Origin: Prosthecobacter debontii
GTDB taxonomy: Bacteria > Verrucomicrobiota > Verrucomicrobiia > Verrucomicrobiales > Verrucomicrobiaceae
Reading direction: 5' to 3'
Length of the DNA stretch: 64,000 bases
NCBI GenBank assembly: GCA_945860295.1
Contig: CAMAQH010000020.1
Location: 1-64,000, forward strand
The notes below the pieces were generated by a model, which was not told where the DNA came from, did not search any database, and worked only from the letters and a program-made list of their open reading frames with translations. Below, one piece after another: positions 30,571 to 46,089 of this stretch (positions within the stretch are counted from its first letter, which is position 1; every line of letters starts with the position of its first letter). Both the position numbers and the translations under genes were made by a program.

Positions 30571-32748
30571 TTAGGACGCAAGACCATGATCTGCCAGTGC
30601 TTTCAACATGTCTTCGACTGCCTTCTCAGAGGTATCACAGCGTTGAGCAATCTCGGCTACACTGTTGATGCCGTCGATTAAGTAGAGAATGTTGAAAAAT
30701 GCACGGTAGCTTTCCGGGTCAGATGCGAAGTCTAAATGCAGGCCGTAGCGGGAACAAAAAATCTCGCCTTTAAAATGATTCAAAGGAACACGACTCGAAA
30801 GCTGAGCAACTTTAACTGAAATGGGAGCCAATGGAACCTGAAATAAAGAATACTCCTCCAACGCTTCTATCATGTGAAGCACGAGTTTGGTGCTGTCCAC
30901 CATGTGAGGCCAAGAAACCTTATCAGGCGTGTCATCGCTGGAGTGATACTCAGCGTAAGGATAGATTCCAGCAAACTTATCCTTGAGTACACGAGAGAGT
31001 GAGAGCATGGGCACTCGCACGCCAGGAGCATTGAATTGTCGCTCATCGTTTCCAACTACAGTTCGAAAGGCACCAGTCCATTCATCTGGATCATGCTGGG
31101 AAAGAGCTTTGGCAAAACAGCGGTCAATAAGAGTATCGCCATCAAAGGACATCTGCAAGGCCGGCGGATTTGGCAGACTCAGCATTTCCAGAAATAGACC
31201 ACCTTTCATCTGAGGAATTAGATGCTCATTCTGACTCAGCCATGCCAATGAACCGATGGTTTCCGGTAGAATGAGAAATCGGTAGCTATAGCGTAACCCA
31301 TGACGCTTCTTCAGTTCTCTCATGACGTTGATGCCGACCACCACTCCGCTGAGATCATCTGCCACCTGACCTGGATGGCAGAGATGCGCACATAGTACTA
31401 TGCAGTCATCACTCTGCCCTTGGACAAAAACTTCACCGACCTTCAATTCACCAAAACTGAACTCGCTGCGGATGCGCACTCGGTAATCGGCGTCAGGCAG
31501 TGAGTCTCTCAGTGCACTCGGACAGCAGAGGCCCCAATCGCGATCATAGTATTTGAATATGAATGGCGTTGCGTGTGGTAAAAGTGGGTGGACATGCAGA
31601 TGCTTCAATAACTCTTCTCGCGTCACTATTCCCTCAAACGGTAATGAGTAGGAGACCACGTGTAGGAGCTGGTCGGCATAGTCAATCAGTCGGTGTCCGT
31701 CAGTGGTTTCCAGCCACGCTTCGTAACATGTCCATTTCTCCGGCACAAGCCATGTCCAGGCGTGGGTGCCCGTGGGATAGGCATGGATCTGCATGGGCAC
31801 GACTGTGGCTAGTGCATCGAGAGCCGCGTCATAGCCGTCAGAGACGATGTCACGAGGTAAAAACCACAGTGCCTCGATCATGTCCTGCATGCTTGCATCT
31901 GCAGGCAGGCTGACATTGAAGTGCCTTTTTTTGCTAGTGAGGACAGGCACCTTGCCGTGCAGTCCTGCTTGGTTCAAAAAATTGGGCTGCGTGGACAAAG
32001 CGCCTTCGAGCAGTCGCACCATGTCACGGGCACGCATGGCGGTGATAAATCCCCGCCCCACTTGGATTTTCTTCGCAAGACCCGTTTCATAGGCCAAGGC
32101 ATCAAACTGTGTCACGTCCACCCGCGTGTCGGGATTGGTGGGATCTTGGACTGTGAAGATGCTGCCTTTCCTGACGGTCTTTCCCTTCAAAATGAAATCG
32201 CCCACAAACAATTTGTCGTAGCGATAGGGCACGTTCAGGTAGCGTTCGACATAATGGGCGAGTCCTGATATCGCCCACAAATTGACATTGATGACCCAGC
32301 CGTCTGCTTCGACGAATCTTTGCCAAAAACAGCCAGGCGCAAAACTCGCCATAGGCACGTCTTTGGTTAGCTCGTCGGCCCTGGCTCCCAAAGCAGCCAC
32401 TGAAAATATCGGGTCACAGGTTCTAATGACTCCCGACTGCTGTCTGACGAACTCAGACCAGCCTTTGACGGCAGAAGGGGTGTGCTCAGGATCGAAGGCT
32501 TCTCCTTTGGGAAAGCTGTAGGTGTACGTAGGCACGCATAGAGTGCCTGGCTTGCCTAGCACGTCCAAAAAAGCGTCTAGCAGCACTTGGTCGGCGACTT
32601 GTCGGTTGTTGCCTTCTTTGGGGATGCCTAGCAGGCCCAGATTGGTGTAGGACAGCACCACGTCTCCTTCTGTGAGACCTGCACTTCTGAAGGCAGAGAC
32701 CAAGTCAGCCTTTGAGTAATGGAAAGAGGCGGTTGAAAGTACACTCAT
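30571..32748 (-). CDS. Fusion of AAC(3)-type acyltransferase and DUF4910 aminopeptidase-like domain
   Basis: The ATG at 32748 gives 725 residues; the upstream extension overlaps the HAD gene. Residues 1-265 match the AAC(3)/FrbF/YokD acyltransferase fold (GDVVLSYTNLGLLGIP, GTLCVPTYTYSFPKG, VIRTCDPIFSVAALG, then AISGLAHYVERYLNVPYR). The usual His before P..S is Asp here. Residues about 290-725 are a DUF4910/DUF2172 M28-like domain with the zinc-site pattern VLCAHLCHPGQVADDLSG, Glu in PETIGSLAWL, and a winged-helix tail (INSVAEIAQRCDTSEKAVED). It follows the HAD and ACP genes. Unfused homologues sit together in the Campylobacter flagellin-sugar locus, as I recall. A role in acyl transfer from ACP to an amino sugar is inferred. 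It is not likely to be a resistance gene. Confidence 0.8.
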   Translation of the reverse strand: MSVLSTASFHYSKADLVSAFRSAGLTEGDVVLSYTNLGLLGIPKEGNNRQVADQVLLDAFLDVLGKPGTLCVPTYTYSFPKGEAFDPEHTPSAVKGWSEFVRQQSGVIRTCDPIFSVAALGARADELTKDVPMASFAPGCFWQRFVEADGWVINVNLWAISGLAHYVERYLNVPYRYDKLFVGDFILKGKTVRKGSIFTVQDPTNPDTRVDVTQFDALAYETGLAKKIQVGRGFITAMRARDMVRLLEGALSTQPNFLNQAGLHGKVPVLTSKKRHFNVSLPADASMQDMIEALWFLPRDIVSDGYDAALDALATVVPMQIHAYPTGTHAWTWLVPEKWTCYEAWLETTDGHRLIDYADQLLHVVSYSLPFEGIVTREELLKHLHVHPLLPHATPFIFKYYDRDWGLCCPSALRDSLPDADYRVRIRSEFSFGELKVGEVFVQGQSDDCIVLCAHLCHPGQVADDLSGVVVGINVMRELKKRHGLRYSYRFLILPETIGSLAWLSQNEHLIPQMKGGLFLEMLSLPNPPALQMSFDGDTLIDRCFAKALSQHDPDEWTGAFRTVVGNDERQFNAPGVRVPMLSLSRVLKDKFAGIYPYAEYHSSDDTPDKVSWPHMVDSTKLVLHMIEALEEYSLFQVPLAPISVKVAQLSSRVPLNHFKGEIFCSRYGLHLDFASDPESYRAFFNILYLIDGINSVAEIAQRCDTSEKAVEDMLKALADHGLAS

Positions 32749-32776
32749 GGAGATTGCAAAAATTGAGGTTCGTCGA

Positions 32777-34621
32777 TCACCGTTGGTCCACAAGAGTGAT
32801 GGGGCATTGGCGGGTGTCAGTCAGAGTCACGGACAGACTATACTTTCCGTTGGCCTCTTCAAAGCCCAAGCGATCTAGAAAAGCACTGACATAGCCATTC
32901 TTCGGTGTGCGCAGGAAGACGGCCTGAATCTCAATGCAGCCATGTTTTTCAGCACGCTGAAGCAGCTCACGCAAAATGCAGTCTTCAAGGGTTCGGCTAA
33001 AAACGCGGCAACTCATGACCCAATTTTTGATCTCTAGGATTCTGTCATGAACTTCTAGCACGGCACATGAAACCAAGCCATGAGACGCATGGCGATCCTT
33101 CAGCCATACCGCGAGAATGAATGCGCTGCTGGATTGCATGAGGGCATCAAGCTGTGGCTTGTCCCAGGTCTGCCCGTTCCAGTTGAACTGATTGGTCTTT
33201 TTGAAGAGCTGCTCGACACGAGGCAAATCCTGGATCGAGACGTCTCGGATCGCCGCCTGCATCTGAAGGCTGGCCAGGTAAGCGGCGAGCGTATCAGACT
33301 GTGAGATCGCTATGCGCAATTCATCAGCCACCAGCAGTGACTGTGCGCGCCCCAAGTCCTCAGTTGTCAGATCGAGCGGGGCGAATAGATAAAGCTCATC
33401 CACTTGGCGGATAAAGTCGGCAGGGTCGGCATCAAGATGAATCACAGTGACCTCAGGCAGCGCGGCCATCACTTCGGCACACTCTGCCGGGTTGTCATCA
33501 ATGAAGACCAAGCTGTCCAGACCTACATTGAGCCGTTGGGCGATTTTTTTCAGACCCGTGGACTTTACTCCCCAGCCACATTCCCAGGCAGAAAAGTCAG
33601 CAAGTTTCAGTGGGCATTCCGGGTGCTTTTCAAAGGGTTCTTGGGCAATCTCAAGTTCATTCTTGCTGCACACCGCGAGTAGGGTCCCCTGCTGACGCAA
33701 GGTGATGATGTACCGCTGGAATGCGGCATGGGCTTCACCCTTTGCAGAGACGGTTCCGAGTTCAATGCCAGCAAGCCCATCATCGCCGATGACGCCACCC
33801 CAGAGAGTGTTATCCAGATCGCACACCAGCACCTTCCGCGTGCGCCCCAGCAGTGCTCGCCACAATCCGCCGAACAGTAAGCTGTATGAGCCTGTGGCGG
33901 AGGGGTCGAAGCCGTGCTTGCTGTGATGATACCAGCGCGGACTAAGCCAGGTTTTCGCACCCAAGTATTGGGCGGCTAGATTCACATCCAGGACACGGAT
34001 CTGATCCCCTTCGTGCTCCCAGAGCTTCTTGTTTAGCCGCTCGATATATCGCGTCGCTGAGTGCACGTAGCGGCCTTCCTGATGTCCCAGTGACCGCGTC
34101 GCCGGTGTCTCAAAATTGTGCTGAATGATCTGCGCTGAAGAAAACTTTTTGATGCAGTTCCATCGCGTGCGCAGCCCGGCGATCACGGACTCTGCAAGCG
34201 CCTCGATTTCGTCCTCAGAGTCACTAGGTTTTGGCCATTCCCGCACATCCGTCACGCCAGTGGCGACGAGCATAAAGTGGGGTTTAAAGGAGTATAGCGC
34301 GGAGCCTGGGGAGAGTGGCTCCGTCTCAAAGCTGCCGTAGTCACCTTCCTGGATTTCAGCCCATGAGCCTTCTGCCAGCAGATGTGGCAGGATGAGGTCA
34401 GTGATCATTCGTGTCGTGTAAGTGCCGATAACGGCTACTCTCAAAAGACGATCTTCGGTGAACTGGCGCCACGTTTCCTGATGCTCAAGTATCAAGCGTG
34501 TCAGCCGCTGCCACTGCATTGGAGTCAAAGGTTGCAGAACCAAGGCGCGGAGGGCAGCCCAAGCTGTCGGCACTTGTCCGGCTTTTAATGCGGTGCTGAA
34601 AATTTCCAGACTAATCTTCAT
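32777..34621 (-). CDS. FkbH-type HAD-IIIC protein (glyceryl-ACP loading)
   Basis: FkbH proteins dephosphorylate 1,3-bisphosphoglycerate and load the glyceryl group onto an acyl carrier protein. The 614-residue product has an N-terminal SGNH-like region (LLRVAVIGTYTTRMITDLIL) and a HAD core at about 268-400 with the nucleophile motif VCDLDNTLWGGVIGDDG. Later HAD motifs are LLAVCSKNE and LVFIDDNPAECAEV. A C-terminal GNAT-like FkbH domain contains KKTNQFNWNGQTW and WVMSCRVFSRTLED. The start overlaps the end of the ACP gene by 11 bases, tying the two products. The next gene, the AAC(3)/DUF4910 fusion, begins 28 bases later. Confidence 0.88.
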   Translation of the reverse strand: MKISLEIFSTALKAGQVPTAWAALRALVLQPLTPMQWQRLTRLILEHQETWRQFTEDRLLRVAVIGTYTTRMITDLILPHLLAEGSWAEIQEGDYGSFETEPLSPGSALYSFKPHFMLVATGVTDVREWPKPSDSEDEIEALAESVIAGLRTRWNCIKKFSSAQIIQHNFETPATRSLGHQEGRYVHSATRYIERLNKKLWEHEGDQIRVLDVNLAAQYLGAKTWLSPRWYHHSKHGFDPSATGSYSLLFGGLWRALLGRTRKVLVCDLDNTLWGGVIGDDGLAGIELGTVSAKGEAHAAFQRYIITLRQQGTLLAVCSKNELEIAQEPFEKHPECPLKLADFSAWECGWGVKSTGLKKIAQRLNVGLDSLVFIDDNPAECAEVMAALPEVTVIHLDADPADFIRQVDELYLFAPLDLTTEDLGRAQSLLVADELRIAISQSDTLAAYLASLQMQAAIRDVSIQDLPRVEQLFKKTNQFNWNGQTWDKPQLDALMQSSSAFILAVWLKDRHASHGLVSCAVLEVHDRILEIKNWVMSCRVFSRTLEDCILRELLQRAEKHGCIEIQAVFLRTPKNGYVSAFLDRLGFEEANGKYSLSVTLTDTRQCPITLVDQR

Positions 34622-34874
34622 TGACGACAGCCTTTTGCTGAAGCTTGCCCTGCAACAGTGAGATCAGGTCTGCTACTTTGCCCATGCGGCCTATTTCATC
34701 AGTCGAAAACTGGATTTTGTAGGAGTCCTCAAGGCCCATGATCAGATTGATGTGCGCAAAGGAATCCCAGCCTTCGACATCCGACGCTGTCATGGCTTCG
34801 GTGATCATAAGCTCCGGCTGGCCGAGCACTTCACGAAGGATGGATATTACCTTGTCTAGCAGATCATTGTTCAT
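34611..34874 (-). CDS. Acyl carrier protein (FkbH-linked)
   Basis: The 87-residue product (ATG at 34874, MNNDLLDKVISILREV) has the four-helix ACP pattern. The phosphopantetheine serine lies in DVEGWDSFAHINLI, the variant typical of ACPs next to FkbH proteins, and helix III follows (LEDSYKIQFSTDEIGRMGKVADLISLL). The longer ORF start at 34916 adds residues with no ACP counterpart. It is the first gene of a minus unit with the FkbH gene (11-base overlap) and the acyltransferase fusion. It probably carries a glyceryl or related acyl unit rather than fatty acids. Confidence 0.9.
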   Translation of the reverse strand: MNNDLLDKVISILREVLGQPELMITEAMTASDVEGWDSFAHINLIMGLEDSYKIQFSTDEIGRMGKVADLISLLQGKLQQKAVVNED

Positions 34875-35006
34875 GCGGATGAATTCATTGGAGAGAACCG
34901 CCTGCATTGTCAACACAGGCTTTCCGCATCCAGTTTATTGTATGCAGATTTTGTTTGCCAGCCGTTGTTGAAGAGTGCTTGTAGTGTCCCTCCCAATCAC
35001 TTTTTG

Positions 35007-35963
35007 ATGAACCTGCCTGACACTTCCTCCCCCACTCCCTCGGCGGTTAGCCGGGGTGAGACCGCCGTTAAAAATCTCATCCACATCGTGGCGAAAGCGA
35101 ACCAGGTTCACGCTAAAAAGCTGGAGCGGTTCCTGATGCCGCTCGGAGCTGACTACTTTGCCTTTGCGGGTGCTTTCATCGACCGTGTCTCGGCGCACTT
35201 GGTCGAGCAGGGGCGCACGCTCGATTTCGCGGTGGAGTGCTACCTGAAAATGATCGCTGATGTCACCAGTGAGCACGTGAGATTTCTGCGCACCGGGCGC
35301 TATACGAGCACGTCTTTTGATGAGGTGAATAAGCGCGTCTATGGCAACCCAGAAGTCATGAGCTACTACATGCATGGGCTGCTGCTCAGTCAGGTGCTTT
35401 GGGCGCATCACTACAAGATGATGCTCTTCTTTGAGGCTGGGCTCGCGCGCCGTAGCGGAGCTGTGAAAAGCTACATGGAGGTCGGTGGTGGGCATGGCCT
35501 ATTCCTTGCAGAGGCGATGCGTCTCATTCCAAAGGGCGAATCCTTTACCATGGTCGATATCAGTCCCGCGTCTCTCCAGATGGCCCAGGAATTTGTCCCT
35601 GCTGATGGCAGGCTGACATTCACTTTGGCAGATGTCTTTTCTCATGAAGTCGAGTCCAAGGTGGATTTCATCACCATGGGTGAGGTCATGGAACATGTGG
35701 AAGATCCGGTGAAACTGCTGGCACGTTTGCGGCACTTCCTGAAAGACACGGGGCGCGTCTTCATCACCACGCCCACTGACTCGCCTGCCATTGACCACAT
35801 TTTTCATTTTAAGAGTGCCGATCACATCCGCCAGATCATCGATGAGGCGGGCTTTGCTGTGGATGAAGAACTCGGCCTCTGGGCGGAGGATATGCCGCCT
35901 GAACTCCTGGCGAAATATAAAGTCACACTGCTCTACGGAGCCTTCTTGAAATCCAAAGCCTAG
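35007..35963 (+). CDS. Class I SAM-dependent methyltransferase
   Basis: The ATG at 35007 gives 318 residues (MNLPDTSSPTPSAVSRGE). The SAM site is YMEVGGGHGLFLAEAM near residue 160, the acidic motif II is FTMVDISPAS, and motif IV is FITMGEVMEHVEDPVKLLARL. The N-terminal helical part (about 20-150) is unlike common sugar methyltransferases. It is divergent from the ACP gene across 132 bases. With FkbH and ACP beside it, an O-methyltransferase acting on the glyceryl group is a reasonable guess. The VOC gene follows 15 bases later. Confidence 0.75.
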   Translation: MNLPDTSSPTPSAVSRGETAVKNLIHIVAKANQVHAKKLERFLMPLGADYFAFAGAFIDRVSAHLVEQGRTLDFAVECYLKMIADVTSEHVRFLRTGRYTSTSFDEVNKRVYGNPEVMSYYMHGLLLSQVLWAHHYKMMLFFEAGLARRSGAVKSYMEVGGGHGLFLAEAMRLIPKGESFTMVDISPASLQMAQEFVPADGRLTFTLADVFSHEVESKVDFITMGEVMEHVEDPVKLLARLRHFLKDTGRVFITTPTDSPAIDHIFHFKSADHIRQIIDEAGFAVDEELGLWAEDMPPELLAKYKVTLLYGAFLKSKA

Positions 35964-35978
35964 TCAGGAGTTTCAATC

Positions 35979-36386
35979 ATGATGTCTCAGGCACGCTTTC
36001 ACCATACGGGGTGCTTGGTGGCGGATATCGATGCCGCGATAGCCGGCTACAAGGCCTTCTGGGGAGATGATTGTGCCTCGCCCATTTGGGAAATCACGGA
36101 GCAGTCCGTCCGAGTGTGCTTCGTTCGTCCGCACCCTGAGAGCGCCGCGTTGGAACTCATCCAGCCAGCGGTGGGAACTTCCCTTCATTCACAACTGGGC
36201 AAAGGCACCTCGTTCTATCATGTCGCCTATGAAGTGAAGGATTTCGACTCAGCGTTGGTTGCCGCTACAGCCTCAGGCTGTCGTTGCATGAAAGCCTTTA
36301 CCTCCAGTGCCTTTGAAGGGCGCCGCTGCATTTTCATATACACACCGCAGAGACATCTCATGGAGTTCATCGAAATGGCTCAATAG
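35979..36386 (+). CDS. VOC-family protein, methylmalonyl-CoA epimerase-like
   Basis: The 135-residue product is a single vicinal-oxygen-chelate domain (FHHTGCLVADIDAAIAGYKA...VRVCFVRP...ALELIQP...FYHVAYEVKDFDSALV...LMEFIEMAQ). Its metal-ligand pattern (His near 8, Glu near 58, His near 80, Glu near 130) resembles methylmalonyl-CoA epimerase and glyoxalase I. It lies 15 bases after the methyltransferase gene and probably forms a two-gene unit with it. In this setting it could epimerise an acyl group on the carrier protein, but that is speculation. It is convergent with pseI. Confidence 0.75.
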   Translation: MMSQARFHHTGCLVADIDAAIAGYKAFWGDDCASPIWEITEQSVRVCFVRPHPESAALELIQPAVGTSLHSQLGKGTSFYHVAYEVKDFDSALVAATASGCRCMKAFTSSAFEGRRCIFIYTPQRHLMEFIEMAQ

Positions 36387-36410: not shown

Positions 36411-37472
36411 CTATTCTAGCAGGGCGTCCCAGCTCAGTGCGGTGCCCCGTGAGGCGTCCTGGCGGAGACGTCTGCCAAGAAGCAAATCGTAGAATTTGGG
36501 AGGCAGTCCAAAACCAGGACGAATACTACGCAGGTTTTGCGCAGTCAGTGGGTCGCCAGCTTTCATGTCCTCGCAAATGTAGAGGGAGCGGCGGCCCCGG
36601 AGAAAACCCTTTTCGCTGGCTTGATATCCATAGCTGATGATGCCGACGGATTCCCAGCCGGCGCGGCATTCCTCAACCAGCGCCTTCATTTCCGCAGGCT
36701 CAAGGCTGAAGTGGGAATCGGGTCCGCCGTCGGCACGGGCCAGGGTTAAGTGCTTCTCGATCAATGAGGCACCGAGAGCTGCAGCGGCCACGGAGGCACC
36801 AATGCCAAGGGTGTGATCAGAGGCACCCGTGAGGCAGCCGAACATATCCGCCAGATGGCTCATGGTTCGCAGGTTGGAAGTTTTCGGACTGGCCGGGTAG
36901 TCCGTGGTGCATTTTAGCAAAATAATCTGCGGAGCACCGTTTTCACGCGCAGTGTTCACGGCCTCTTCGATTTCGGCCACGGCGGCCATACCGGTGGACA
37001 TAATGAGTGGCTTGCCAGTCTGCGCGCACTTTTTGATCAGTGGCAGGTCTACGATTTCGGGCGAGGCGATTTTGTAACAAGGTGGTTCCAACTTTTCCAG
37101 AAAGTCCACGGCGGTGAAATCAAACGGGCTGCTGAACCAGGCAAGGCCTTGTTCAATGGCCCGATCCACCATGGCGCGATGCCACTCCCACGGTGTGTGG
37201 GCTTCTGCATACAAGCTGTGCAGGCTGCGACCATCCCATACCGAGCCGGGTTTGCGCACAAAGAACTCCTCGCCGTCCGCATCCAGCGTGATGGTGTCCG
37301 CTGTGTAAGTCTGCAGTTTGATGGCATCTACACCGCAGGCGGCGGCGGCATCAATGAGTAGCAGTGCACGGTCTAACGACTGATTGTGATTGCCGGAGAG
37401 TTCTGCCACGATCAACGGCCGCCGACTGCCGCGTGGCTGGCTGAGGGTGTCGAGAAATTCGGCGTTTGTCAT
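36411..37472 (-). CDS. pseI: Pseudaminic acid synthase PseI (NeuB family)
   Basis: PseI condenses phosphoenolpyruvate with 2,4-diacetamido-2,4,6-trideoxy-L-altrose to make pseudaminic acid. The 353-residue product has a NeuB TIM barrel (about 15-280). The PseI-like signature is IVAELSGNHNQSLDRALLLI, IKLQTYTADTITLD, WDGRSLHSLYAEAHTPWEWH, with later barrel motifs STGMAAVAEIEEAV and ASDHTLGIGASVAA. A C-terminal antifreeze-like SAF domain follows (about 290-353, RSLYICEDMKAGDPLTAQNLRSIRPG). The WDGR...TPWEWH spacing favours PseI over sialic or legionaminic synthases. It is the last gene of the long minus cluster, 13 bases after the aldolase gene. Confidence 0.9.
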   Translation of the reverse strand: MTNAEFLDTLSQPRGSRRPLIVAELSGNHNQSLDRALLLIDAAAACGVDAIKLQTYTADTITLDADGEEFFVRKPGSVWDGRSLHSLYAEAHTPWEWHRAMVDRAIEQGLAWFSSPFDFTAVDFLEKLEPPCYKIASPEIVDLPLIKKCAQTGKPLIMSTGMAAVAEIEEAVNTARENGAPQIILLKCTTDYPASPKTSNLRTMSHLADMFGCLTGASDHTLGIGASVAAAALGASLIEKHLTLARADGGPDSHFSLEPAEMKALVEECRAGWESVGIISYGYQASEKGFLRGRRSLYICEDMKAGDPLTAQNLRSIRPGFGLPPKFYDLLLGRRLRQDASRGTALSWDALLE

Positions 37473-37485
37473 GAGTTAAAGAAAA

Positions 37486-39426
37486 TTACAGGCCCCATTG
37501 GTCGACGATCCACTGCTGGGCCGCTACGGCGCGGTTTCGGGATTCGGCGCATAGTGGTCGGATGCCACCCTGGCCGTCGGCTTCGCCGAGGATGAAACGT
37601 GGCATAGTGAGATGATCCACGACCAAGTCTCCCGCCTGCCCGACGGCACCTCCTGCGACGATGTGGATGCTGTCGCTCAGGTCGTGTTGTCCGGCGGCGT
37701 TGTGGAAACGGTCATGTGTGTTCATGAGCCGTTCAGCCTCCGCGACCAGGGCGGTGCCGCAGTCGAGCCTCCAGAGCTGCAGGCCGCGCTGGCGGGCCTC
37801 AGCAAAGGCTTCATCTGTGAGCGCGCGGGCCCGCACCATGAGTACTGCACCTCCATCCCGGACACGTTTCAAATCGTCATTGCCCGCCGGAGCTGCGGAG
37901 TCGCAGGTTATCAGTGCATCTGCGCCTTGCCCGTCTTCCATGACTTTCGTGATGCGGCTAATGGCCGCGCGCTGGCCTGCATCGTCACCGACTACGGCCA
38001 CTAGGGTGGCTCTCAGCATTTGCAGGGCATCAGCCACGGCTTGAGCAATCACCACGTCATCTTCATAGATAAACTGTGGCTGGGTAACGGTTGGAGTGAC
38101 AGGTCGTTCCAGACGCTTATCCAAGAGCCAGAAATCACAGGATTGAGCTAGAATGGACTGAACCTCGGCCAGGGTGTTCACCGTGCTGACCTCGACATGG
38201 GCAACGATGCTGCTGCGGTTGCTGCGCAGCGGCCCGATGCGAGCGGCGGTGAGGCCCGGAGTGTGGGCTATGGTGACGACTCGCCGTTGCAGGCTTTTGC
38301 CCTTCTGCACCCTCAGAAGGCCAGCCAAGGCTGTGAGAGTCGTTGGCTGCAAACGCTCTAGGGAGGCACCCTTACCAGGGATATTGGAAATCTGGCTGTT
38401 GTGTCGCAGTTCCAAAGCGGCTTGATGGGCCGCTTCAGCGGCTACTTCTGGGAGAACTTTTTTGCGCGAATTTTTTGGCAGGCGCAGGATGGTGCGAAAC
38501 ATGGGGGCATTGGCATCAGCCGCCGCCAGTTCCACCAGCGGAGCAAAGCTGGTGTGAAAGTAGTTCAATCCAGTGGCGATCTCCGCCGCCCGCGGCCGTG
38601 CATGATCAGGCACGCAGAACTGCATCATCGAGTCGGCAAACTCGACTAGTCTTTTCCAGTCTATGGGCCAGGCTAGGCTGTTGCGCTGAGTGAGAACTGC
38701 GGCCAGCAGTTCCGTCGCGGCATTACCTCCGCTGCGTCCCAGGCCGGCCAGACTGCCATCCACATACACACCTCCGCACTCGATGAAGCGCAGGCAGTTG
38801 GCGACCGCCAGGGTCAGATTATTGTGCCCATGAAAAGCCAGTGGTACTTGCGTGCTGCGGGCAAGAGTCGCCTCCGTGTAAGCTGCGACATCGTTGGGTG
38901 TCATGCCTCCGGCAGAGTCCACGATGGCTACGACATCAACGCCAAACTCACCCACTCGCTGGCTCACCAGGGCGAACTCGGTGGGCGGCACTAGATAAGA
39001 TTTCATCATGTTTCCCCACACTTCGAGTTTGAGCGATTTGGCCAGCTTGACGAATGGCTCGAGCTTTGAGTAATCGTCCACATCCATCCCTAAACGTACA
39101 AAACCAAGTCCGGCATCTGCCGCCGCCCGCAAGCTGTTTTCCGTGCCGATGCCAGGGATGAAAAAGCTGCCGATCAGGGCGGATTCAGGCACTGCGGCCC
39201 TGGCTGCGGTGATGTATTCGATGTCGGTGATGGCGGCGCTGCCTTTGCCGCAGTTTTGCGCGTTCAGGCCGAGACCGTGGCCGACTTCAATGTGGCGGAT
39301 GCCTGCAGCGGCGAGACCGTGGGCGACGATGAAAGTGTCCTCTACAGTAAACTGATAGTCCACGACATAGCTGCCGTCACGGATGGTACAGTCGAGGATG
39401 TGGGCGGATCTTTCCATGAGGGGCAA
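37486..39426 (-). CDS. Two-domain protein: DRE-TIM (HMGL-like) aldolase plus unknown C-terminal domain
   Basis: Residues 1 to about 345 are an HMG-CoA lyase/4-hydroxy-2-oxovalerate aldolase-type barrel. It has the metal and substrate motif LDCTIRDGSY (D12, R16, D17), HIEVGHGLG, VDSAGGMTP and AFHGHNNLTLAVAN with the metal histidines. Residues about 370-646 have no counterpart I know. Fragments such as VAHVEVSTVNTLAEVQ, TLVAVVGDDAGQRAAI and DALITCDSA suggest alternating strands and helices, perhaps Rossmann-like. It lies between the methyltransferase at 39470 and pseI. A pyruvate-type aldol reaction is suggested by the fold, but the substrate is unknown. Confidence 0.75.
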   Translation of the reverse strand: MPLMERSAHILDCTIRDGSYVVDYQFTVEDTFIVAHGLAAAGIRHIEVGHGLGLNAQNCGKGSAAITDIEYITAARAAVPESALIGSFFIPGIGTENSLRAAADAGLGFVRLGMDVDDYSKLEPFVKLAKSLKLEVWGNMMKSYLVPPTEFALVSQRVGEFGVDVVAIVDSAGGMTPNDVAAYTEATLARSTQVPLAFHGHNNLTLAVANCLRFIECGGVYVDGSLAGLGRSGGNAATELLAAVLTQRNSLAWPIDWKRLVEFADSMMQFCVPDHARPRAAEIATGLNYFHTSFAPLVELAAADANAPMFRTILRLPKNSRKKVLPEVAAEAAHQAALELRHNSQISNIPGKGASLERLQPTTLTALAGLLRVQKGKSLQRRVVTIAHTPGLTAARIGPLRSNRSSIVAHVEVSTVNTLAEVQSILAQSCDFWLLDKRLERPVTPTVTQPQFIYEDDVVIAQAVADALQMLRATLVAVVGDDAGQRAAISRITKVMEDGQGADALITCDSAAPAGNDDLKRVRDGGAVLMVRARALTDEAFAEARQRGLQLWRLDCGTALVAEAERLMNTHDRFHNAAGQHDLSDSIHIVAGGAVGQAGDLVVDHLTMPRFILGEADGQGGIRPLCAESRNRAVAAQQWIVDQWGL

Positions 39427-39469
39427 ATGTGCTGATTATGATGGCAGGCGATACGCGCTTGTCATGCGT

Positions 39470-40711
39470 TCAATCCGCGGACAGAAGACAGCCGCCTGCT
39501 CCATCCAGTAATACAAAGTGAGGCAGGCCAAAACTGCGAATTTGGGTAGCGATAGCCTGAGTCCAGCCGCGTGAGCAGATAACGCATACATGCAGCATGG
39601 CCGGGGCAAATCCGGTGGGGTCTGGCTTCTGCACCAGATGTTCAAAACCTTCCAGGTCGGTCCCGGTCTTGGCGTCGGAATTGTCAAAGGGAAGAATCTC
39701 GACTGCGTCTGTGGCCAGCAGGGGACGCAGAAGGGAGGCGATCTCACTTGCGGTTTGGTTGGCTCCGAAGAAACAGACGCGCACTGACAGGGGGGCCTCA
39801 TTTACCGCGATGAACACCAGCCTAGCGCTGACCATCAGATTGTTTGTGGCGTCGTCCAGGAGTTCACGACCACGCAGGTAGCTCGCTTGCAGTTTGGCGG
39901 CACAGACTTGCAGCCCAGCCAGATCAGGAGGGGGAGGCGTTTCCGTCTTCCTGGCGACCAAGGCAAAACCAAAACGGCGGCTTGCTCCACTATCACTTGT
40001 TTCTACAACCTCAAAGCCTGCTTCGTTCACCAGTGCGGTCAGGGACTCTGGTGTTAGATAGAGGAAGTGCTCATGCATGAGCGCTTCTTTGGGATGCAGC
40101 ACCAAATGCGGCACCTCGATCACCAGGCAGCCCCCTGGAGTTAGTAACCCGCGAATGGAGCGCAGCCAGTGCTGCGGATTGGCGAGATGCTCGACGACAA
40201 AGTAGGCCAGAACTGCATCGAACGCCTCGCGCATGGCTGTTGGGGGCACTGCCACACAACCGCGACGAAAGAGTCCATCCAACCAGTCTCTACGCTCAGA
40301 GGCAGCAGCCATCACGTCATCACCAGCAACTTCGTAACCAGCCTTCACCAGCGCCGCGTGAAATTCACCCAGCTTGTCTCCGATCTCGTATAGACGAGCC
40401 TGCGGGGTTAACCATCGGTTGAGGAGATTGAGCCGCAGTGCCACATCGAAGTCCGGCTCTATGGTAATGGAAGTGGAGGAAATGGGCCAGCAGTCCGTGT
40501 AGTAGTCACGCAGAAATCCCGCCTCGGGCCGCAGCCGGTTGAAAACGAATCCGCAGCGCTTGCACTGCGTATCTTGATGCCGCCATGTGTAGTCGTGCTG
40601 CTTTTGCAGGATACGGGCACTGCGTGTGCCCAACACCGTCAATTCGGTTGCGTCAGCTCCGCAGACGTCACAGGCAACCGGTGTCCAGGTGGTTTCGATC
40701 AGCTCCCTCAT
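39470..40711 (-). CDS. Class I SAM-dependent methyltransferase with N-terminal zinc site
   Basis: The 413-residue protein starts with two CxxC pairs (ACDVCGA and QCKRCGFVFN), then the motif FLRDYYTDCW. A SAM domain follows whose first motif is degenerate (LYEIGDKLGEFHAAL) but whose later parts are normal (AVLAYFVVEHLANPQHWLRSI, GGCLVIEVPHLVLH). A C-terminal region (about 290-413) has a second alpha/beta part (VRVCFFGANQTASEIASLLRPL). The plan resembles sugar C-methyltransferases, but the weak glycine motif is odd. It overlaps the preceding methyltransferase gene by 4 bases. Confidence 0.75.
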   Translation of the reverse strand: MRELIETTWTPVACDVCGADATELTVLGTRSARILQKQHDYTWRHQDTQCKRCGFVFNRLRPEAGFLRDYYTDCWPISSTSITIEPDFDVALRLNLLNRWLTPQARLYEIGDKLGEFHAALVKAGYEVAGDDVMAAASERRDWLDGLFRRGCVAVPPTAMREAFDAVLAYFVVEHLANPQHWLRSIRGLLTPGGCLVIEVPHLVLHPKEALMHEHFLYLTPESLTALVNEAGFEVVETSDSGASRRFGFALVARKTETPPPPDLAGLQVCAAKLQASYLRGRELLDDATNNLMVSARLVFIAVNEAPLSVRVCFFGANQTASEIASLLRPLLATDAVEILPFDNSDAKTGTDLEGFEHLVQKPDPTGFAPAMLHVCVICSRGWTQAIATQIRSFGLPHFVLLDGAGGCLLSAD

Positions 40712-41337
40712 ACATGCTTAGTCTTCACGGCTTCCGGTTTGTATAGATAAAGAGTGAACTCATAAAGCGGATAGTCTGCGCGTAGAGTGACAAAGCGGGT
40801 CAGGCTTTTGGCGAAGTCGAAGATCTCCTGCTCACGGTGATAAAACAGGTGCTCCTCTTTGAAGTCCACGTAACTTCCGAGGAGATTGAAAGCGACGCCG
40901 CAACTGGCAATGCGAAAGCTTTCTCTTACGGTGTCATGCATGAAGCCGGTGTTGTCATCGATTTTGAAATTGAACAGGCCGCTGAGGAAGACGTATTCCT
41001 GGGAGTCATCAGCAAACTGGCTGAGATCGGTGGTGGCATGAAACCTAGCCTTGGCATGGCGTTTCTGAGCCACTTCGACGAGCGTTGGATTCAGATCCGT
41101 GCCGGTGTAGCGCACATCGTGGACACCGGCATCTCTCACATAGTCCAGCAGATCGCCAAAACCGCAGCCGATGTCCAAAATCGAGCAACCGCTGAGGTCG
41201 GCGATTTCCGCCAGAATGCGAAAACGGAGCTGTTGCTGGGAGCTATCCCGCCAGCCGAGTGTCTGCGCCGTTTCACCCAGGCTGGCGAGGCGTTCGTTGT
41301 ATCGCTGAATGATTCTTTGCTGCTCGTCAGTGGTCAT
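40708..41337 (-). CDS. Class I SAM-dependent methyltransferase (small)
   Basis: The ORF track extends to 41553, but that part reads antisense-like low-complexity sequence inside the amidohydrolase gene. The ATG at 41337 overlaps the amidohydrolase stop as ATGA and gives 209 residues. The SAM site is ILDIGCGFGDLLDYV, followed by YTGTDLNPTLVEVA and FLSGLFNFKIDDNTGFMHDTV. The tail ends ...FTLYLYKPEAVKTKHV. It belongs to the tightly coupled minus operon, with 4-base overlaps on both sides. The substrate is unknown; a sugar or its acyl substituent is likely from context. Confidence 0.8.
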   Translation of the reverse strand: MTTDEQQRIIQRYNERLASLGETAQTLGWRDSSQQQLRFRILAEIADLSGCSILDIGCGFGDLLDYVRDAGVHDVRYTGTDLNPTLVEVAQKRHAKARFHATTDLSQFADDSQEYVFLSGLFNFKIDDNTGFMHDTVRESFRIASCGVAFNLLGSYVDFKEEHLFYHREQEIFDFAKSLTRFVTLRADYPLYEFTLYLYKPEAVKTKHV

Positions 41338-42116
41338 TGCAAGGCTTTGGAAAGGATTCGCTGGATGTTGCCGGAAAGGACAAGACTTTTGTCGCTCTCG
41401 CTGAATCCGCATTGGTTGCAAAGGCTGAGGGTGTCTTCCAAGGCCTGTTCTGGAAGCACCTCGGGGCTGTCGGAGCCATGCAGGATGCGGTTGGCTCCGA
41501 GCTTGCGCAGCATAAAGACGAGGTCCGAATAAATGTTGGAGCCGGCGAACCAAAAGGGAGTAAAAGAAACGTCCACCACCACATTGCGGTTGCCTTTGAC
41601 GACCATGAGCGCGTCCATGACGTGAATGCCTCCAGCGTGAGCCATGATGATGTCCGCTTGCGGCACGGCCTGGGCCACTTCATGGATCAGGCGCACTTCT
41701 TGAATCTTGTAATAAGTATCACCATAGGGGAAGGCATCGAACAAAACAGGCACGCGATATGCGGCCGCCTGCTCGACCAACTTGATCACCTGGTGCAAGT
41801 GATCTATGCCGAAACCTTGGCGGCGCGGGTGCAGTTTCACTCCATGCATGCTGCCGCCTCCGACATAGGTGCGCAGCGTTTCTTCGACAGATGTAGGGCT
41901 CAGCGGATCAAGTGAGACGAAGCCGATGAGCTGCGGATACTCGGCACACTTCTTCGAGACATAGGCATTGCCCATGTCCGGTTCAATGGCGAGCACCACG
42001 GCCTTGTCGATGCCAGCGCTTCTCAAGTTGGCGACCAGGGTTTCGACACTGGCGTCTTTATGCGATCCGAAGCCGTGTGGATCAGGATGGATGTGCGTAT
42101 GGGCGTCGATGATCAT
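41334..42116 (-). CDS. Amidohydrolase-2-type metal-dependent hydrolase
   Basis: The 260-residue TIM-barrel protein has the N-terminal metal motif IIDAHTHIHPDPHGFG, the mid-barrel VKLHPRRQGFG, a His in IIMAHAGGIHVMDALM and the final Asp in ILHGSDSPEVLP. This is the pattern of the ACMSD/2-pyrone-dicarboxylate branch of amidohydrolases (hydrolases, lactonases or decarboxylases). It overlaps the ATP-grasp gene by 1 base and the methyltransferase by 4 bases, so its product probably acts in the same pathway. No such enzyme belongs to the standard pseudaminic acid route. Confidence 0.8.
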   Translation of the reverse strand: MIIDAHTHIHPDPHGFGSHKDASVETLVANLRSAGIDKAVVLAIEPDMGNAYVSKKCAEYPQLIGFVSLDPLSPTSVEETLRTYVGGGSMHGVKLHPRRQGFGIDHLHQVIKLVEQAAAYRVPVLFDAFPYGDTYYKIQEVRLIHEVAQAVPQADIIMAHAGGIHVMDALMVVKGNRNVVVDVSFTPFWFAGSNIYSDLVFMLRKLGANRILHGSDSPEVLPEQALEDTLSLCNQCGFSESDKSLVLSGNIQRILSKALQ

Positions 42117-43309
42117 CAGCGGGTCATGAGATGGATTAAGTCCAGCGCGGACTGGGCGGTGGCACGGCAGTTTGCGGGATCTTCGGCATAGGTCAGGATG
42201 TGTCCGGCGCGGTCAGAACCGGAGCGCAGTTCATGGAGTTGCTGCCCTGGTTTTGGATATAGCACAACTTCCGACACACCGGGCAGGGCGCGAGCTGCTT
42301 CAACGCCCTCGGCTGCGATGAATTCTCCAGGCACTGGATCCACAAACACCAACGATGCGGCCATGCCCTTTCCTAGACATTGGAGATCGGGCTTCTGTCC
42401 CAGGCTGGCTTGAATACTTGCTTTCGTGGTCGAAAAACCGGTGACGCGCGGGAGCATTTCCGTGAAAACCTTGAACCCCGCACCGCGCGCTGCCAGTTCC
42501 ACAATCATGGGGCCTTGAGGCGAATAGATGCACTCCAGATGAACGGGGCAGTCGCGGAATCCACAGGCTTGAATGGCGCGCACAGCGTGGTCGATCATGA
42601 TGCGGCGTTTTGATTTGGAAAGGTCATCAGGGAAATGCACCTGACGGTCCAGCAGGTAGGGCGGTTGCGTGCGCACCTTCATGGAGGTGGCGAGCACATG
42701 CACTTCAGTGCCCACGACCCAGGCCTCCACACTGTACTCAGTGCCAGGCATGAAAGACTCCACCATGACTAGGGCGGAACGGGAGTTTTGTCGTGCCAGT
42801 TCAAAGGCTCCGGCCACTTGACCGCGCTCATTCACATAGCTCACACCGCGGCTGCCTGAGGCATCTACGGGCTTGATCACGACGGCGGGAGATTGAAAGC
42901 GATCCCAGGACTCCAGCGCTGACTCAGCCGTTTCCACGGCGGCAAACTGCGGCATCAGCAGGCCCGCTTCGCTCATGGCTTCGCGTTGCAGGAGTTTGCT
43001 GCGTGAGACGCGTACCACTTCTGAGCGGATGCCCGGCAGTCCCAGTTCTGCGCAGGCTGCTGCCACGGCCTCCATCGCGACATCACAGCACACGCTGACG
43101 ATGCCCTGTGCCTGTGTGAGCCGCGCGACGCGGAGAACTTCCTGGGCGTCCAGGATATTTCCCAAATGGCTTTCATCCGCGTCACTGAGGCCGGGCGCAG
43201 TGGCGTCACCATCCATGGCTGCCACATCGTAACCCATGAGTTTGGCCTCCCGAATTGCGGGTGCCTGGGCAAGCCCGGCGGCAACAAAGAGGATCTTTTT
43301 TTTCATCAA
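42116..43309 (-). CDS. ATP-grasp ligase
   Basis: The 397-residue product has the three ATP-grasp parts. The N-terminal Rossmann-like domain starts KILFVAAGLAQAPAIREAKLMGYDV. The ATP-binding strands are VVIKPVDASGSRGVSYV and VMVESFMPGTEYSVEAWVV, and the metal-binding motif is HLECIYSPQGPMIVELAARG. ATP-grasp enzymes activate a carboxylate as acyl-phosphate and couple it to an amine or thiol. In this operon it could attach an acid or amino acid to the sugar amine, taking the place of an acetyltransferase; that is inference. It abuts pseG (1-base gap) and overlaps the amidohydrolase by 1 base. Confidence 0.85.
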   Translation of the reverse strand: MMKKKILFVAAGLAQAPAIREAKLMGYDVAAMDGDATAPGLSDADESHLGNILDAQEVLRVARLTQAQGIVSVCCDVAMEAVAAACAELGLPGIRSEVVRVSRSKLLQREAMSEAGLLMPQFAAVETAESALESWDRFQSPAVVIKPVDASGSRGVSYVNERGQVAGAFELARQNSRSALVMVESFMPGTEYSVEAWVVGTEVHVLATSMKVRTQPPYLLDRQVHFPDDLSKSKRRIMIDHAVRAIQACGFRDCPVHLECIYSPQGPMIVELAARGAGFKVFTEMLPRVTGFSTTKASIQASLGQKPDLQCLGKGMAASLVFVDPVPGEFIAAEGVEAARALPGVSEVVLYPKPGQQLHELRSGSDRAGHILTYAEDPANCRATAQSALDLIHLMTR

Positions 43310-43310
43310 G

Positions 43311-44315
43311 TCAATTTTCGGGGTTGGCCATTTGGGTGATCAGAGTGGCCAGGCGTTCGAGCCCGTTTCCGTCCACGATACTGGCGGCGCGGCTGGCGAA
43401 CTCAAGCCGCTCTTGCTTGGTCGCCTCCAAAATTTTACCCACCTCATGTGCCCAAATGCAGGCTTTCTCATGGCAGAAGCCTGTGGCAAAAGCGATTTCA
43501 GCCGCGTTTTGAGGAAGGACCGCTACCAGACGACCGATGCAGAGGGCTTCTAACATGGTGCCCCCACCGTTGCAAAGTACGAGATCGGCGCTGCCAAGCA
43601 GGCCATCAAAGTCCGGAGGACTTCTCTCGATTTTGAAGTCCAGTCCAGCGGCCTCTAAGCGAGCCTGTTGTATCAGCGCGTCATTCACGCCAGGACCCAG
43701 CACCACAGTGACTTGATCGAGACGATTACGCCAGGGTCGCAGCAAGTTCATTGCCTCCAGGGTGAGTCCGCCAGGGTCAGCACCGCCGATGGTGATCACG
43801 GCATTCGAGACACCATTCTGGCCGGGCAGCAAACATCTGGCACGCTGAGCCATCAGACTGGGTCGAATCACGGCATACTCCACGCCTTCATGATAGGAGG
43901 AAGCTCGGCCTGCCCTCATAAACGCCTCATGCATGTGGCCGCTGAGATCCTTCAGCGTTACTACAGCATCTGGCAGCATATCGGCCTGCTGGTAATCCAG
44001 AGCCAGACACACCAACCCCTGATCTTGGCACCAAGCCACCGTCTCCTTCTGACGGAAAGCCGTCATGTCCACCATGGTTACATTCGCCGGGAGGGGGACG
44101 GGCTGAGCCAGAGCCTGCCATTTCAGCCCGTTTAAAATGTGCTGAATGGCATCCTGGCTCAGTCTTTGATCCGCTTTCCCCAGCACTTGAAAAGTGATCT
44201 CCCAACCTTGGCTTTGTAGGTGACGCGCCAGAGTGGCACAGCGCCGAAGATGCCCCGTTCCTGTTCGAACAGAACCTTCGGTAAGGATGAGCAAGCTGCC
44301 TGGTGGCGTTCTCAT
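43311..44315 (-). CDS. pseG: PseG-like UDP-sugar hydrolase
   Basis: PseG cleaves UDP from UDP-2,4-diacetamido-2,4,6-trideoxy-L-altrose by a GT-B-type mechanism. The 334-residue product has the family N-terminus SVRTGTGHLRRCATLARHL with the catalytic His22, the acidic VTMVDMTAF region, AVITIGGADPGGLTLEAM, and the C-terminal nucleotide-binding motif LVLCNGGGTMLEALCIGRLVAVLP. The first Rossmann half is more divergent than in Helicobacter or Campylobacter PseG, which could mean a different 4-N-acyl group on the substrate. It overlaps pseF by 4 bases. Confidence 0.85.
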   Translation of the reverse strand: MRTPPGSLLILTEGSVRTGTGHLRRCATLARHLQSQGWEITFQVLGKADQRLSQDAIQHILNGLKWQALAQPVPLPANVTMVDMTAFRQKETVAWCQDQGLVCLALDYQQADMLPDAVVTLKDLSGHMHEAFMRAGRASSYHEGVEYAVIRPSLMAQRARCLLPGQNGVSNAVITIGGADPGGLTLEAMNLLRPWRNRLDQVTVVLGPGVNDALIQQARLEAAGLDFKIERSPPDFDGLLGSADLVLCNGGGTMLEALCIGRLVAVLPQNAAEIAFATGFCHEKACIWAHEVGKILEATKQERLEFASRAASIVDGNGLERLATLITQMANPEN

Positions 44316-45025
44316 GACGATGCGTCCATTTTCACGGCATTGAAAAGATGCAAGGCATGTTCCCAGTCCTCCGGAGTATCAATGTCCTGGCAGCGATGCC
44401 GTGGGATGACCAAAGGCAGACAATGACCGTTGAGAACGGAGTCCTGTTCCAAAAAAGCGGTGGATCGGCCGATCACAAACTGTCCGGCATCATGAAAAGC
44501 CTCCTTGAGTTCTTGAGTAGCTGTCAGCCGCAACTCTGGATACATGAAACGAATGTGGCCGCTGGCATCTGTGATCATCGCTCGTTGAATGGGGGCGGGA
44601 AAAGTACAAACGGAGATCACATATTCAGCCTCTGGGTTTTTTCTCAGGCGATCACGAGCCGCTCGCAGATCCTCGGCTCTGAGAAAGGGAGCGGTCGCGT
44701 AAACACAGCCCAGCCATTCGGGCTGTCCACCTCCCTCATACTTCAGCCAATGGAGGGCATGGCGTAGTACTTGGTTGAGGCCGGCGGTATCTCCGGAAAT
44801 CTCCTGTGGGCGCATGAATGGGACCGTGGCTCCATAATGACGAGCCACCTCGGCAACTTCATCATCATCGGTGGAGACGATCACCTCGTCGAACACGCCA
44901 CTTTTCAGGGCGGCTTCAATACTCCAGACGATCATGGGTTTATCGCCAAAGGTACGGACGTTCTTGCGCGGTATGCGTTTGCTGCCACCGCGTGCTGGGA
45001 TGATGGCCACGGAGTCAAGTCTCAT
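44312..45025 (-). CDS. pseF: Pseudaminic acid cytidylyltransferase PseF
   Basis: PseF activates pseudaminic acid with CTP to the CMP-sugar used by transferases. The 237-residue GT-A-fold product has AIIPARGGSKRIPRKNVRTF (the CTP-binding loop), MIVWSIEAAL, VIVSTDDDEVAEVA, GCVYATAPFLRAEDL and the PseF-typical ATQELKEAFHDAGQFVIGR. The last motif separates PseF from NeuA and legionaminic enzymes. It overlaps pseG and the sugar methyltransferase gene by 4 bases each. Confidence 0.93.
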   Translation of the reverse strand: MRLDSVAIIPARGGSKRIPRKNVRTFGDKPMIVWSIEAALKSGVFDEVIVSTDDDEVAEVARHYGATVPFMRPQEISGDTAGLNQVLRHALHWLKYEGGGQPEWLGCVYATAPFLRAEDLRAARDRLRKNPEAEYVISVCTFPAPIQRAMITDASGHIRFMYPELRLTATQELKEAFHDAGQFVIGRSTAFLEQDSVLNGHCLPLVIPRHRCQDIDTPEDWEHALHLFNAVKMDASS

Positions 45026-46089
45026 GATTTACGCCGTAGTAGCAGGAGTTCCGAGTGGTAGCCGTCCATGGTGCGGTACCCGAAAGGAAATACGCTGCGC
45101 TCCACCAGTTCATAGTCAGGCAGCATATTTAGATAGTCATCGCTGAAAATGGGGGTGTCCACACCGGCCCAGCCGCCTGCTTTGCGCAGTTGCTTGCCCT
45201 CTCGCATGTTCCTCAGCAGTACCCATCTCGTTTTTAGCCGCGCGACATGGCTCAGGTAGTTCTGTACGATGTTAGGCTCCATTTCCTGGAAGGAGATAAA
45301 ATTTACAAACAGATCGATCTGACCACGCAGCTTCTCGATCTGCCAAGCGCAGAGCACGGAGAAAGGCCTGAGCGCCTGGATGTCGATCTGCTTGAGGTCA
45401 CGTGTTTGCGCATAGGTGGAGATTTTGTCCGCGCCCAGAGCCTCACTCAAGTAATACTGCGCCACATAGCTGGTCGGAGGGATGTCAATGTCCACATAAT
45501 GCAGACCCTCGATGTCTGCGTGGGACAGAACCTCGCCCAGCGTGCCGAAACCGCCGCCGATCTCCAATACCGCGCGGGGCACTTCGTCAGGAACCAGGTG
45601 CTTTTTAAGAAGAGACAGCCCGAGTAGATAGTTCAGTGCAGAACGAGAAAACCAGCGACCATCAAAGGTGAAGTGCTCCACTGGCTCGCCCACCTTACTC
45701 TCCGAAAAGGTGTGCAGATACGGACGCCTTTGAGGGGAGTCGGCGGCAAGTAGCACGCGGTAGTCAGCAAGGGCGGAGCCCTCGCCAGAAAGGAACTGTT
45801 TCAGAGCCAGTAGGGCTTTATTCGCATCAGGATAGGCCTGCTGCAAATGGTCGCACAATTCAACGATCTGGCCCTGGGTAAAACTGTTGCCCGGCGTGCC
45901 AAAAGTGGGAACGAAAAAGCCAAGCGTATTTGGTAGGCTGCGGAAGTGCTTGATGCCATGCTCGCAAAGCTCGTTCACAATGCGTGTAGAGGCTTCATCC
46001 CAGAACACGCTCGGACGGTAAAGTTCGCTCTGAGACTTCATGTCTTCGCGGGCGAGTGAGAGTTCAGAATAGTTGTGCAGGAGGTTCAT
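45022..46089 (-). CDS. Putative sugar O-methyltransferase
   Basis: The 355-residue protein belongs to the putative sugar O-methyltransferase family common in polysaccharide loci. Marks are SALNYLLGLSLLKKHL, the SAM motif VLEIGGGFGTLGEVLSH near residue 193, HYVDIDIPPTSYVAQYYLS, FVNFISFQEMEPNIVQNYL and a tail SVFPFGYRTMDGYHSELLLL. It overlaps pseC by 1 base and pseF by 4 bases. It may methylate the final nonulosonic acid or another residue of the same glycan. Confidence 0.82.
   Translation of the reverse strand: MNLLHNYSELSLAREDMKSQSELYRPSVFWDEASTRIVNELCEHGIKHFRSLPNTLGFFVPTFGTPGNSFTQGQIVELCDHLQQAYPDANKALLALKQFLSGEGSALADYRVLLAADSPQRRPYLHTFSESKVGEPVEHFTFDGRWFSRSALNYLLGLSLLKKHLVPDEVPRAVLEIGGGFGTLGEVLSHADIEGLHYVDIDIPPTSYVAQYYLSEALGADKISTYAQTRDLKQIDIQALRPFSVLCAWQIEKLRGQIDLFVNFISFQEMEPNIVQNYLSHVARLKTRWVLLRNMREGKQLRKAGGWAGVDTPIFSDDYLNMLPDYELVERSVFPFGYRTMDGYHSELLLLRRKS

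Follow-up and report, generated by a model that had tools for sequence, protein, structure and literature searches.

What does a carrier-protein module do beside the pseudaminic acid genes of a verrucomicrobium? In a 64,000-nucleotide stretch of the Prosthecobacter debontii assembly GCA_945860295.1 (contig CAMAQH010000020.1; hereafter the window, whose positions are used for all coordinates), genes for an acyl carrier protein (ACP), an FkbH-type HAD protein and an AAC(3)-type acyltransferase joined to a DUF4910 domain form one string. A methyltransferase and a VOC gene diverge from it, and a pseudaminic acid (Pse) cluster adjoins them. The answer favored here, with a probability of about 0.58, is that the module re-acylates an amine of a Pse-type sugar, the new group being a glyceryl that is delivered by the ACP and probably O-methylated; judged by locus comparison, the set most likely works like the Cj1295-Cj1302 module of Campylobacter. 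This reading rests on the recurrence of the same six families in Campylobacter-type pse loci, with a known 5-N-(2,3-di-O-methylglyceroyl)-Pse product in C. jejuni; on a methyltransferase family found only beside FkbH, a link between ACP and AAC(3), and AAC(3) genes abutting or fused to DUF4910; and on intact catalytic or metal-site residues in FkbH, AAC(3) and DUF4910, a confident two-domain fold and the absence nearby of the dehydrogenase pair of methoxymalonyl-ACP synthesis. The identity of the group as glyceryl, its number of methyls and its position of attachment are all things that we infer.

One member of the string is the gene that an earlier note on this DNA had called AAC(3)/DUF4910 and placed after FkbH. 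It does lie there, with its start 28 bp past the FkbH stop, and is a true two-enzyme fusion in one polypeptide. Matches to Antibiotic_NAT (85 bits), DUF4910 (209 bits) and DUF2172 all fall inside a single open frame, 30571-32793(-), which encodes 725 residues from the probable ATG at 32748 and reaches upstream to a TTG at 32793 (725-740 residues); the AAC(3) domain corresponds to about residues 10-260 of the 725-residue protein. An AlphaFold model, whose mean predicted local distance difference test score is 90.4, has a short disordered or flexible linker at 261-272, and Foldseek matches one half of it to PDB entry 3k9t (E 8.7e-44) and the other to AAC(3) structures (about 1e-20). In the AAC(3) domain, the catalytic His of the Antibiotic_NAT fold and the downstream Glu (H and E of AHYVE) are conserved, and Tyr replaces another, N-terminal His (H29 in meta-AAC0038). 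The DUF4910 half, the sole DUF4910 of its genome, matches 3k9t at 2e-56, keeps the H/D/H zinc ligands in the family alignment and has the features of the CA_C2195/3k9t family, namely the single-zinc ligands H189, D195 and H324, a DUF2172 domain and a C-terminal winged helix-turn-helix. The GC content of the string (0.49-0.55) is somewhat below that of the pse block (0.56).

FkbH proteins take a glyceryl unit from 1,3-bisphosphoglycerate, dephosphorylate it and load it onto an ACP. The window protein has the sequence features of such a glyceryl-ACP synthase: a profile match over cut-off, intact HAD motifs (D, D, T, S, K, DD), the C-terminal Cys conserved in 59 of the 60 FkbH sequences aligned, and an ACP partner, which can be aligned with 14 other ACPs from FkbH/AAC(3) loci and whose gene overlaps that of FkbH by 11 bp (34611-34621), exactly as the earlier note had reported. 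FkbH and a stand-alone ACP also make glyceryl-ACP in polyketide clusters (PMC7489565); unlike those clusters, this set comes without dehydrogenases, a polyketide synthase and a FabH-like tetronate enzyme, and the acyl group presumably goes to a sugar amine.

The divergent genes, 34938-35963(+) for the methyltransferase and 35979-36386(+) for the VOC protein, are also where they had been described. Among all open reading frames of the loci fetched for comparison (L numbers), every other match of more than 30 bits to this methyltransferase adjoins FkbH; its Campylobacter counterparts are ~30% identical to it over nearly their full length, and this FkbH-linked enzyme is the most telling part of the Campylobacter parallel. 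Branches of a methyltransferase tree were too long for placing the window sequence. Homologues of the VOC protein stand beside FkbH in L079, L080, L081, L086, L094, L106 and L191.

That parallel concerns the flagellin locus Cj1293-Cj1304 of C. jejuni, where Cj1295 is required for the 5-N-(2,3-di-O-methylglyceroyl) form of Pse, deacetylation by Cj1295 being the hypothesis of that study's authors (PMC3068675). Cj1302 encodes an FkbH domain, and Cj1301 carries an epimerase annotation (PMC7099621). The comparison, which the earlier note had made, agrees with these papers and with the genomes: DUF4910, AAC(3), ACP, the FkbH-linked methyltransferase, VOC and FkbH lie beside pse genes in both organisms, and the order PseB-PseC-DUF4910-AAC(3)-ACP-methyltransferase-(methyltransferase)-VOC-FkbH is real and recurring, being seen in the better preserved loci (L191, L193, L202, L206 and L213; VOC detected in some only). 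The window differs from the C. jejuni locus in that AAC(3) and DUF4910 are fused, the methyltransferase-VOC pair is divergent, FkbH comes from another clade and DUF4910 from a divergent subclade; it also lacks PseH, flagellin (none found) and a long poly-G/C phase-variation tract, the longest run in its DUF4910 gene being 7 T; function does not depend on such a tract. Across 200 Campylobacterota genomes, FkbH occurs in 31, DUF4910 in 51 and both in 13 (Fisher p = 0.023), a co-occurrence only modestly above chance; the signal is one of position rather than presence, with the two genes no more than about 6 kb apart in about eleven of those 13. About a dozen Campylobacterota loci repeat the set with its gene order, so it is more than chance. 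A further locus, L210, carries DUF4910-FkbH-ACP-AAC(3) as a tight operon. In Clostridium acetobutylicum, CA_C2186-CA_C2199 encode DUF4910, an N-acetyltransferase, acpA, a HAD plus acetyltransferase (FkbH-like) protein, a glyoxalase, an ATP-grasp ligase and NeuB (PMC4000134); acyltransferase and DUF4910 (CA_C2195, PDB 3k9t) are separate genes there, whereas they are fused in the window, and Das et al. left open whether CA_C2195 catalyzes transacylation or deacylation (PMC4000134).

The carrier protein can be tied more closely to one half of the fusion. Of 62 DUF4910 clusters (the Campylobacter and the Anaerolineales loci each counting as one), 16 have AAC(3), and 10 of these also have an ACP gene no more than 3 kb from DUF4910; none of the 46 clusters without AAC(3) does (p = 7e-8). 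The ACP thus goes with AAC(3), not with DUF4910 alone; AAC(3) is also associated with nonulosonic acid (NulO) genes across these clusters (p = 6e-4). The AAC(3) gene abuts or overlaps DUF4910 in six Anaerolineales loci, and the two are fused in three phyla. Sister loci keep AAC(3), DUF4910 and ACP and exchange the enzyme that loads the carrier: this is FkbH in the window, Campylobacter and L210, FabH in L065 and the same-genus L067 (with a short-chain dehydrogenase/reductase in L065) and an AMP ligase in L144, while a radical SAM protein adjoins the ACP in L114. Anaerolineales NulO loci (L107, L110-L112) have the DUF4910 nearest to that of the window (50-55% identity), AAC(3) directly upstream of it and ACP and methyltransferase in the string, but their loader is an aminoacyl-tRNA synthetase-like amino acid:[ACP] ligase (8e-37 to Bll0957) instead of FkbH. 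The group transferred there is therefore probably an amino acid, and the gene content suggests that aminoacyl-ACP from orphan ligases N-acylates a nonulosonic acid. The full order methyltransferase - ACP - amino acid:[ACP] ligase - AAC(3) - DUF4910 is found in L107, L108, L110, L111 and L112 (for example L112:6370-11317).

Such loci invite a general scheme, to which we give slightly less than even odds, in which nonulosonic acids undergo a carrier-protein-dependent acyl swap: a constant DUF4910 would free the amine, a constant AAC(3) would re-acylate it from ACP, and the loaders would be interchangeable. We assign these only tentatively, FkbH to glyceryl, amino acid:[ACP] ligase to amino acids, FabH with or without a ketoreductase to hydroxyacyls and AMP-ligases to other groups. 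No relevant literature on 3-hydroxybutyryl Pse with ACP was found among open-licence papers; on FkbH with Pse, a single relevant one came up.

Phylogenies bear on how the set came about. In the FkbH tree, the window sequence falls among stand-alone FkbH-ACP units and not with Cj1302-type FkbH; a joint clade with the Campylobacter (Cj1302-clade) proteins was rejected by the approximately unbiased test (p = 1.8e-73), and a clade with the L210 FkbH was not (p = 0.135). The window DUF4910 belongs to a divergent subclade (support 100*) that also holds proteins from Anaerolineales and from a Solidesulfovibrio plasmid as well as the two further fusions. The Cj1295 clade is distant from it; two same-genus genomes have a DUF4910 near that clade. 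The trees reject the idea that the whole set was inherited vertically, or acquired by transfer, from Campylobacter or a Campylobacter-like ancestor. With a shared origin of the two FkbH genes rejected, the set appears to have been assembled independently; the same parts must then have come together on two or more occasions, an indication that they function jointly.

Taken in order, FkbH would dephosphorylate the glyceryl unit from 1,3-bisphosphoglycerate and load it onto the adjacent ACP, where the FkbH-linked methyltransferase would O-methylate it and the VOC protein may epimerize the carbon adjoining the thioester. The DUF4910 domain would strip the sugar of the N-acyl group it already carries, and its fusion partner, the AAC(3) domain, would move the ACP-borne acyl group to the freed amine, two steps suggested by the Cj1295 phenotype together with the fusion. 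PseI and PseF would then complete the sugar and its activation, so that it can enter a polysaccharide or glycoprotein of the cell surface.

Most of the sugar pathway itself lies next door. The earlier note had placed pseI and the rest of the pse genes there; PseB, PseC, PseI and PseF of the canonical Pse5Ac7Ac pathway are all over cut-off, PseI being the only NeuB-family protein of the genome, the PseG-like protein falls below its cut-off, and PseH could not be found, with no TIGR03585 match in the cluster or in the 95%-complete genome. Without PseH, the sugar is something other than Pse5Ac7Ac with a single swap. By analogy, the ATP-grasp protein of the cluster may substitute for PseH: in Neisseria, the ATP-grasp enzyme PglB2 replaces an acetyltransferase domain and gives a glyceramido-acetamido-trideoxyhexose, that is, a glyceryl amide on a 4-amino sugar instead of acetyl (PMC11130364). 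PglB2 shares the ATP-grasp ligase with the window but is an ATP-grasp/phosphoglycosyltransferase fusion, for which that paper describes no carrier-protein loader. A Tritonibacter locus with DUF4910, AAC(3) and an ATP-grasp ligase (the last at L103:15275-16411) apparently lacks pseH as well, and in such pseH-less clusters the ligase (42116-43309 in the window) is a candidate non-acetyl N4-acylating enzyme. The HMGL-type aldolase, MT2, amidohydrolase and ATP-grasp genes may serve the making of a second acyl substituent; homologues of the aldolase and MT2 recur near DUF4910/pse genes of unrelated genomes (window 37486-42116; L072, L124). The NanM-type gene between pseF and pseC (290 bits) hints that the sugar itself may also be O-methylated. 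As no flagellin was found in this genome, the sugar is probably carried by a polysaccharide or another surface protein, not by flagellin.

Table 1. Genes of the acylation module and of the adjoining pse cluster in the window.
Feature	Position	Strand	Basis
Fused AAC(3)-type N-acyltransferase + DUF4910/DUF2172 M28-like domain + C-terminal winged helix	30571..32748	-	Pfam Antibiotic_NAT 7e-24, DUF4910 5.5e-62, DUF2172 2e-23
FkbH-type HAD-IIIC glyceryl transferase/phosphatase, predicted acyl loader	32777..34621	-	TIGR01686 283.7 bits (cut-off 146.65)
Acyl carrier protein, phosphopantetheine site GWDSF	34611..34874 (open frame to 34916; probable ATG 34874)	-	Weak NCBIfam ACP matches
Methyltransferase, FkbH-linked (Cj1300-position) family	35007..35963 (open frame from 34938; probable ATG 35007)	+	Methyltransf_23 5.6e-17
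VOC protein, methylmalonyl-CoA epimerase-like (distant)	35979..36386	+	Glyoxalase_4 8.7e-16; TIGR03081 2e-8, below cut-off
pseI, pseudaminic acid synthase	36411..37472	-	TIGR03586 461 bits, over cut-off
HMGL-type aldolase with C-terminal extension	37486..39426	-	PF00682 5e-29; homologues beside DUF4910 in L072, L124
Methyltransferase MT2	39470..40711	-	Methyltransf_23; homologues beside DUF4910 in L072, L124
Methyltransferase MT3	40708..41337 (called open frame reaches 41553)	-	Methyltransf_12/25
Amidohydrolase_2 family protein	41334..42116	-	PF04909 1.2e-21
ATP-grasp ligase, candidate PseH replacement	42116..43309	-	LAL_C2 + ATP-grasp_4; PDB L-amino acid ligase 3vot 4e-17
PseG-like UDP-sugar hydrolase (divergent sequence)	43311..44315	-	TIGR03590 62 bits, below cut-off 153.55
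pseF, CMP-pseudaminic acid synthetase	44312..45025	-	TIGR03584 274 bits, over cut-off
NanM-type putative sugar O-methyltransferase	45022..46089	-	TIGR04371 290 bits (cut-off 44)
pseC aminotransferase	46089..47249	-	TIGR03588 531 bits, over cut-off
pseB 4,6-dehydratase	48161..49186	-	TIGR03589 519 bits, over cut-off

Several observations weigh against re-acylation by this module. The catalytic Asp and Glu of true M28 peptidases are replaced by Gly and Pro in the window DUF4910, whose family lacks the usual pair (PMC4000134); hydrolytic deacylation by DUF4910 can therefore only be presumed, and it would have to rely on residues elsewhere in the domain, unless the reaction is a transacylation, an option that Das et al. 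also considered. In the phylum, FkbH and full-length DUF4910 occur together in this genome only (1 of 289 Verrucomicrobiota genomes), and the closest relatives of the DUF4910 are without FkbH. FkbH-ACP units, with or without the methyltransferase, are also found beside other acyltransferases (MBOAT, WcbI) or alone, without pse genes, so that proximity to pse is by itself weak evidence. Finally, the N7 acyl step is unexplained without PseH. The glyceryl, perhaps O-methylglyceryl, nonulosonic acid that the earlier note had proposed is thus partly supported, by the same parts and the FkbH-linked methyltransferase, and opposed by the missing PseH and the lack of co-conservation in the phylum. That note would have given up its proposal had the genes not been conserved together in relatives; the phylum sample and the closest DUF4910 relatives go half-way to this refutation.

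What replaces PseH is also where the chief rival arises, the AAC(3) domain competing with the ATP-grasp ligase for that role: AAC(3) would place the ACP-borne group directly on the UDP-sugar, at the 4-amine that becomes N7 in the finished Pse, DUF4910 being a scaffold or transacylase rather than a deacetylase. Missing PseH, the lack of M28 catalytic Asp/Glu in the DUF4910 family (PMC4000134) and the fused L115 and L124 proteins, whose DUF4910 halves have lost the metal ligands next to an intact second DUF4910, are all in keeping with this. However, the only DUF4910 of the Prosthecobacter genome retains its H/D/H ligands, the glyceroyl group of C. jejuni sits on N5, where the acetyl comes from GlcNAc and deacylation is hence needed (PMC3068675), and the ATP-grasp ligase is an alternative candidate for the step; we regard this rival as unlikely, at something over one chance in five. 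Still less probable, although stand-alone ACP-FkbH-methyltransferase-VOC units in Paroceanicella, FkbH-methyltransferase-ACP with MBOAT in Tistrella, FkbH-ACP with WcbI in Niveispirillum and FkbH unlinked to DUF4910 elsewhere in the phylum would fit it, is that FkbH, ACP, methyltransferase and VOC supply acyl groups for some other glycan or lipid and lie beside pse by chance: ACP, FkbH and AAC(3)-DUF4910 form one string, overlapping or 28 bp apart, and both the six families of the Campylobacterota pse loci and the L210 operon speak for a joint function.

The nature of the ACP-borne group and of the acyltransferase leaves room for two further readings. FkbH, ACP and an O-methyltransferase belong to the methoxymalonyl-ACP pathway as well (PMC7489565), and the group could instead be methoxymalonyl, hydroxymalonyl or some other unit that derives from FkbH; this we consider very improbable, the known pse-linked product of the set being di-O-methylglyceroyl (PMC3068675), and the two dehydrogenases of that pathway are not among the genes annotated between 21.9 and 57.4 kb. 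Capture of an antibiotic-resistance acetyltransferase close to a sugar locus would explain the Antibiotic_NAT and distant AAC(3) equivalog matches, yet can practically be dismissed: equivalog scores are at most 49 bits against cut-offs of 270-675, and the domain is fused to DUF4910 inside a sugar operon.

Related loci show further variation on the same parts. FkbH-ACP units (with methyltransferase and VOC in some) lie on Alphaproteobacteria plasmids without pse, alone or beside MBOAT/WcbI (L106, L224, L105, L226), where glyceroylation of other glycans is possible. Two more AAC(3)-DUF4910 fusions (L115:3317-6356 and L124:6665-11311) have DUF4910 halves devoid of zinc ligands, and each locus contains a second, intact Cj1295-type DUF4910 gene, making a pseudoenzyme-enzyme pair. 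Active-site signatures split the DUF4910 family into a Cj1295 type (CHPSMANNELSG..PET), a window type (CHPxxxNDDLSG..PET) and a streptomycete type (CHPSLANDNLxG..PGT), the last without AAC(3) or ACP.

The Campylobacter product, the DUF4910 structure and the sugar-gene neighborhood of DUF4910, including some unspecified gene fusions, have been published. New within the open-licence literature, as far as our searches went, are the occurrence of the set in Verrucomicrobiota, the intact AAC(3)-DUF4910 fusion beside FkbH-ACP, the assembly of the set on its own, the statistical association of ACP with AAC(3), and loader exchange, which extends to amino acid:[ACP] ligases. How Cj1295-type proteins change the N-acyl group of Pse has been an open question since 2010; a DUF4910-acyltransferase fusion in one string with an ACP and a loader points to a de-/re-acylation enzyme with an acyl-ACP donor, on which a single 725-residue protein now offers a handle, and independent assembly of the six-part set in two phyla is evidence of joint working. 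In sister loci, loader exchange allows a gene-based prediction of the acyl group on a bacterium's surface sugar. The acyl-swap system, if true, would account for a large part of the variety of N-acyl groups on bacterial nonulosonic acids, and the orphan amino acid:[ACP] ligases in these loci would gain a role.

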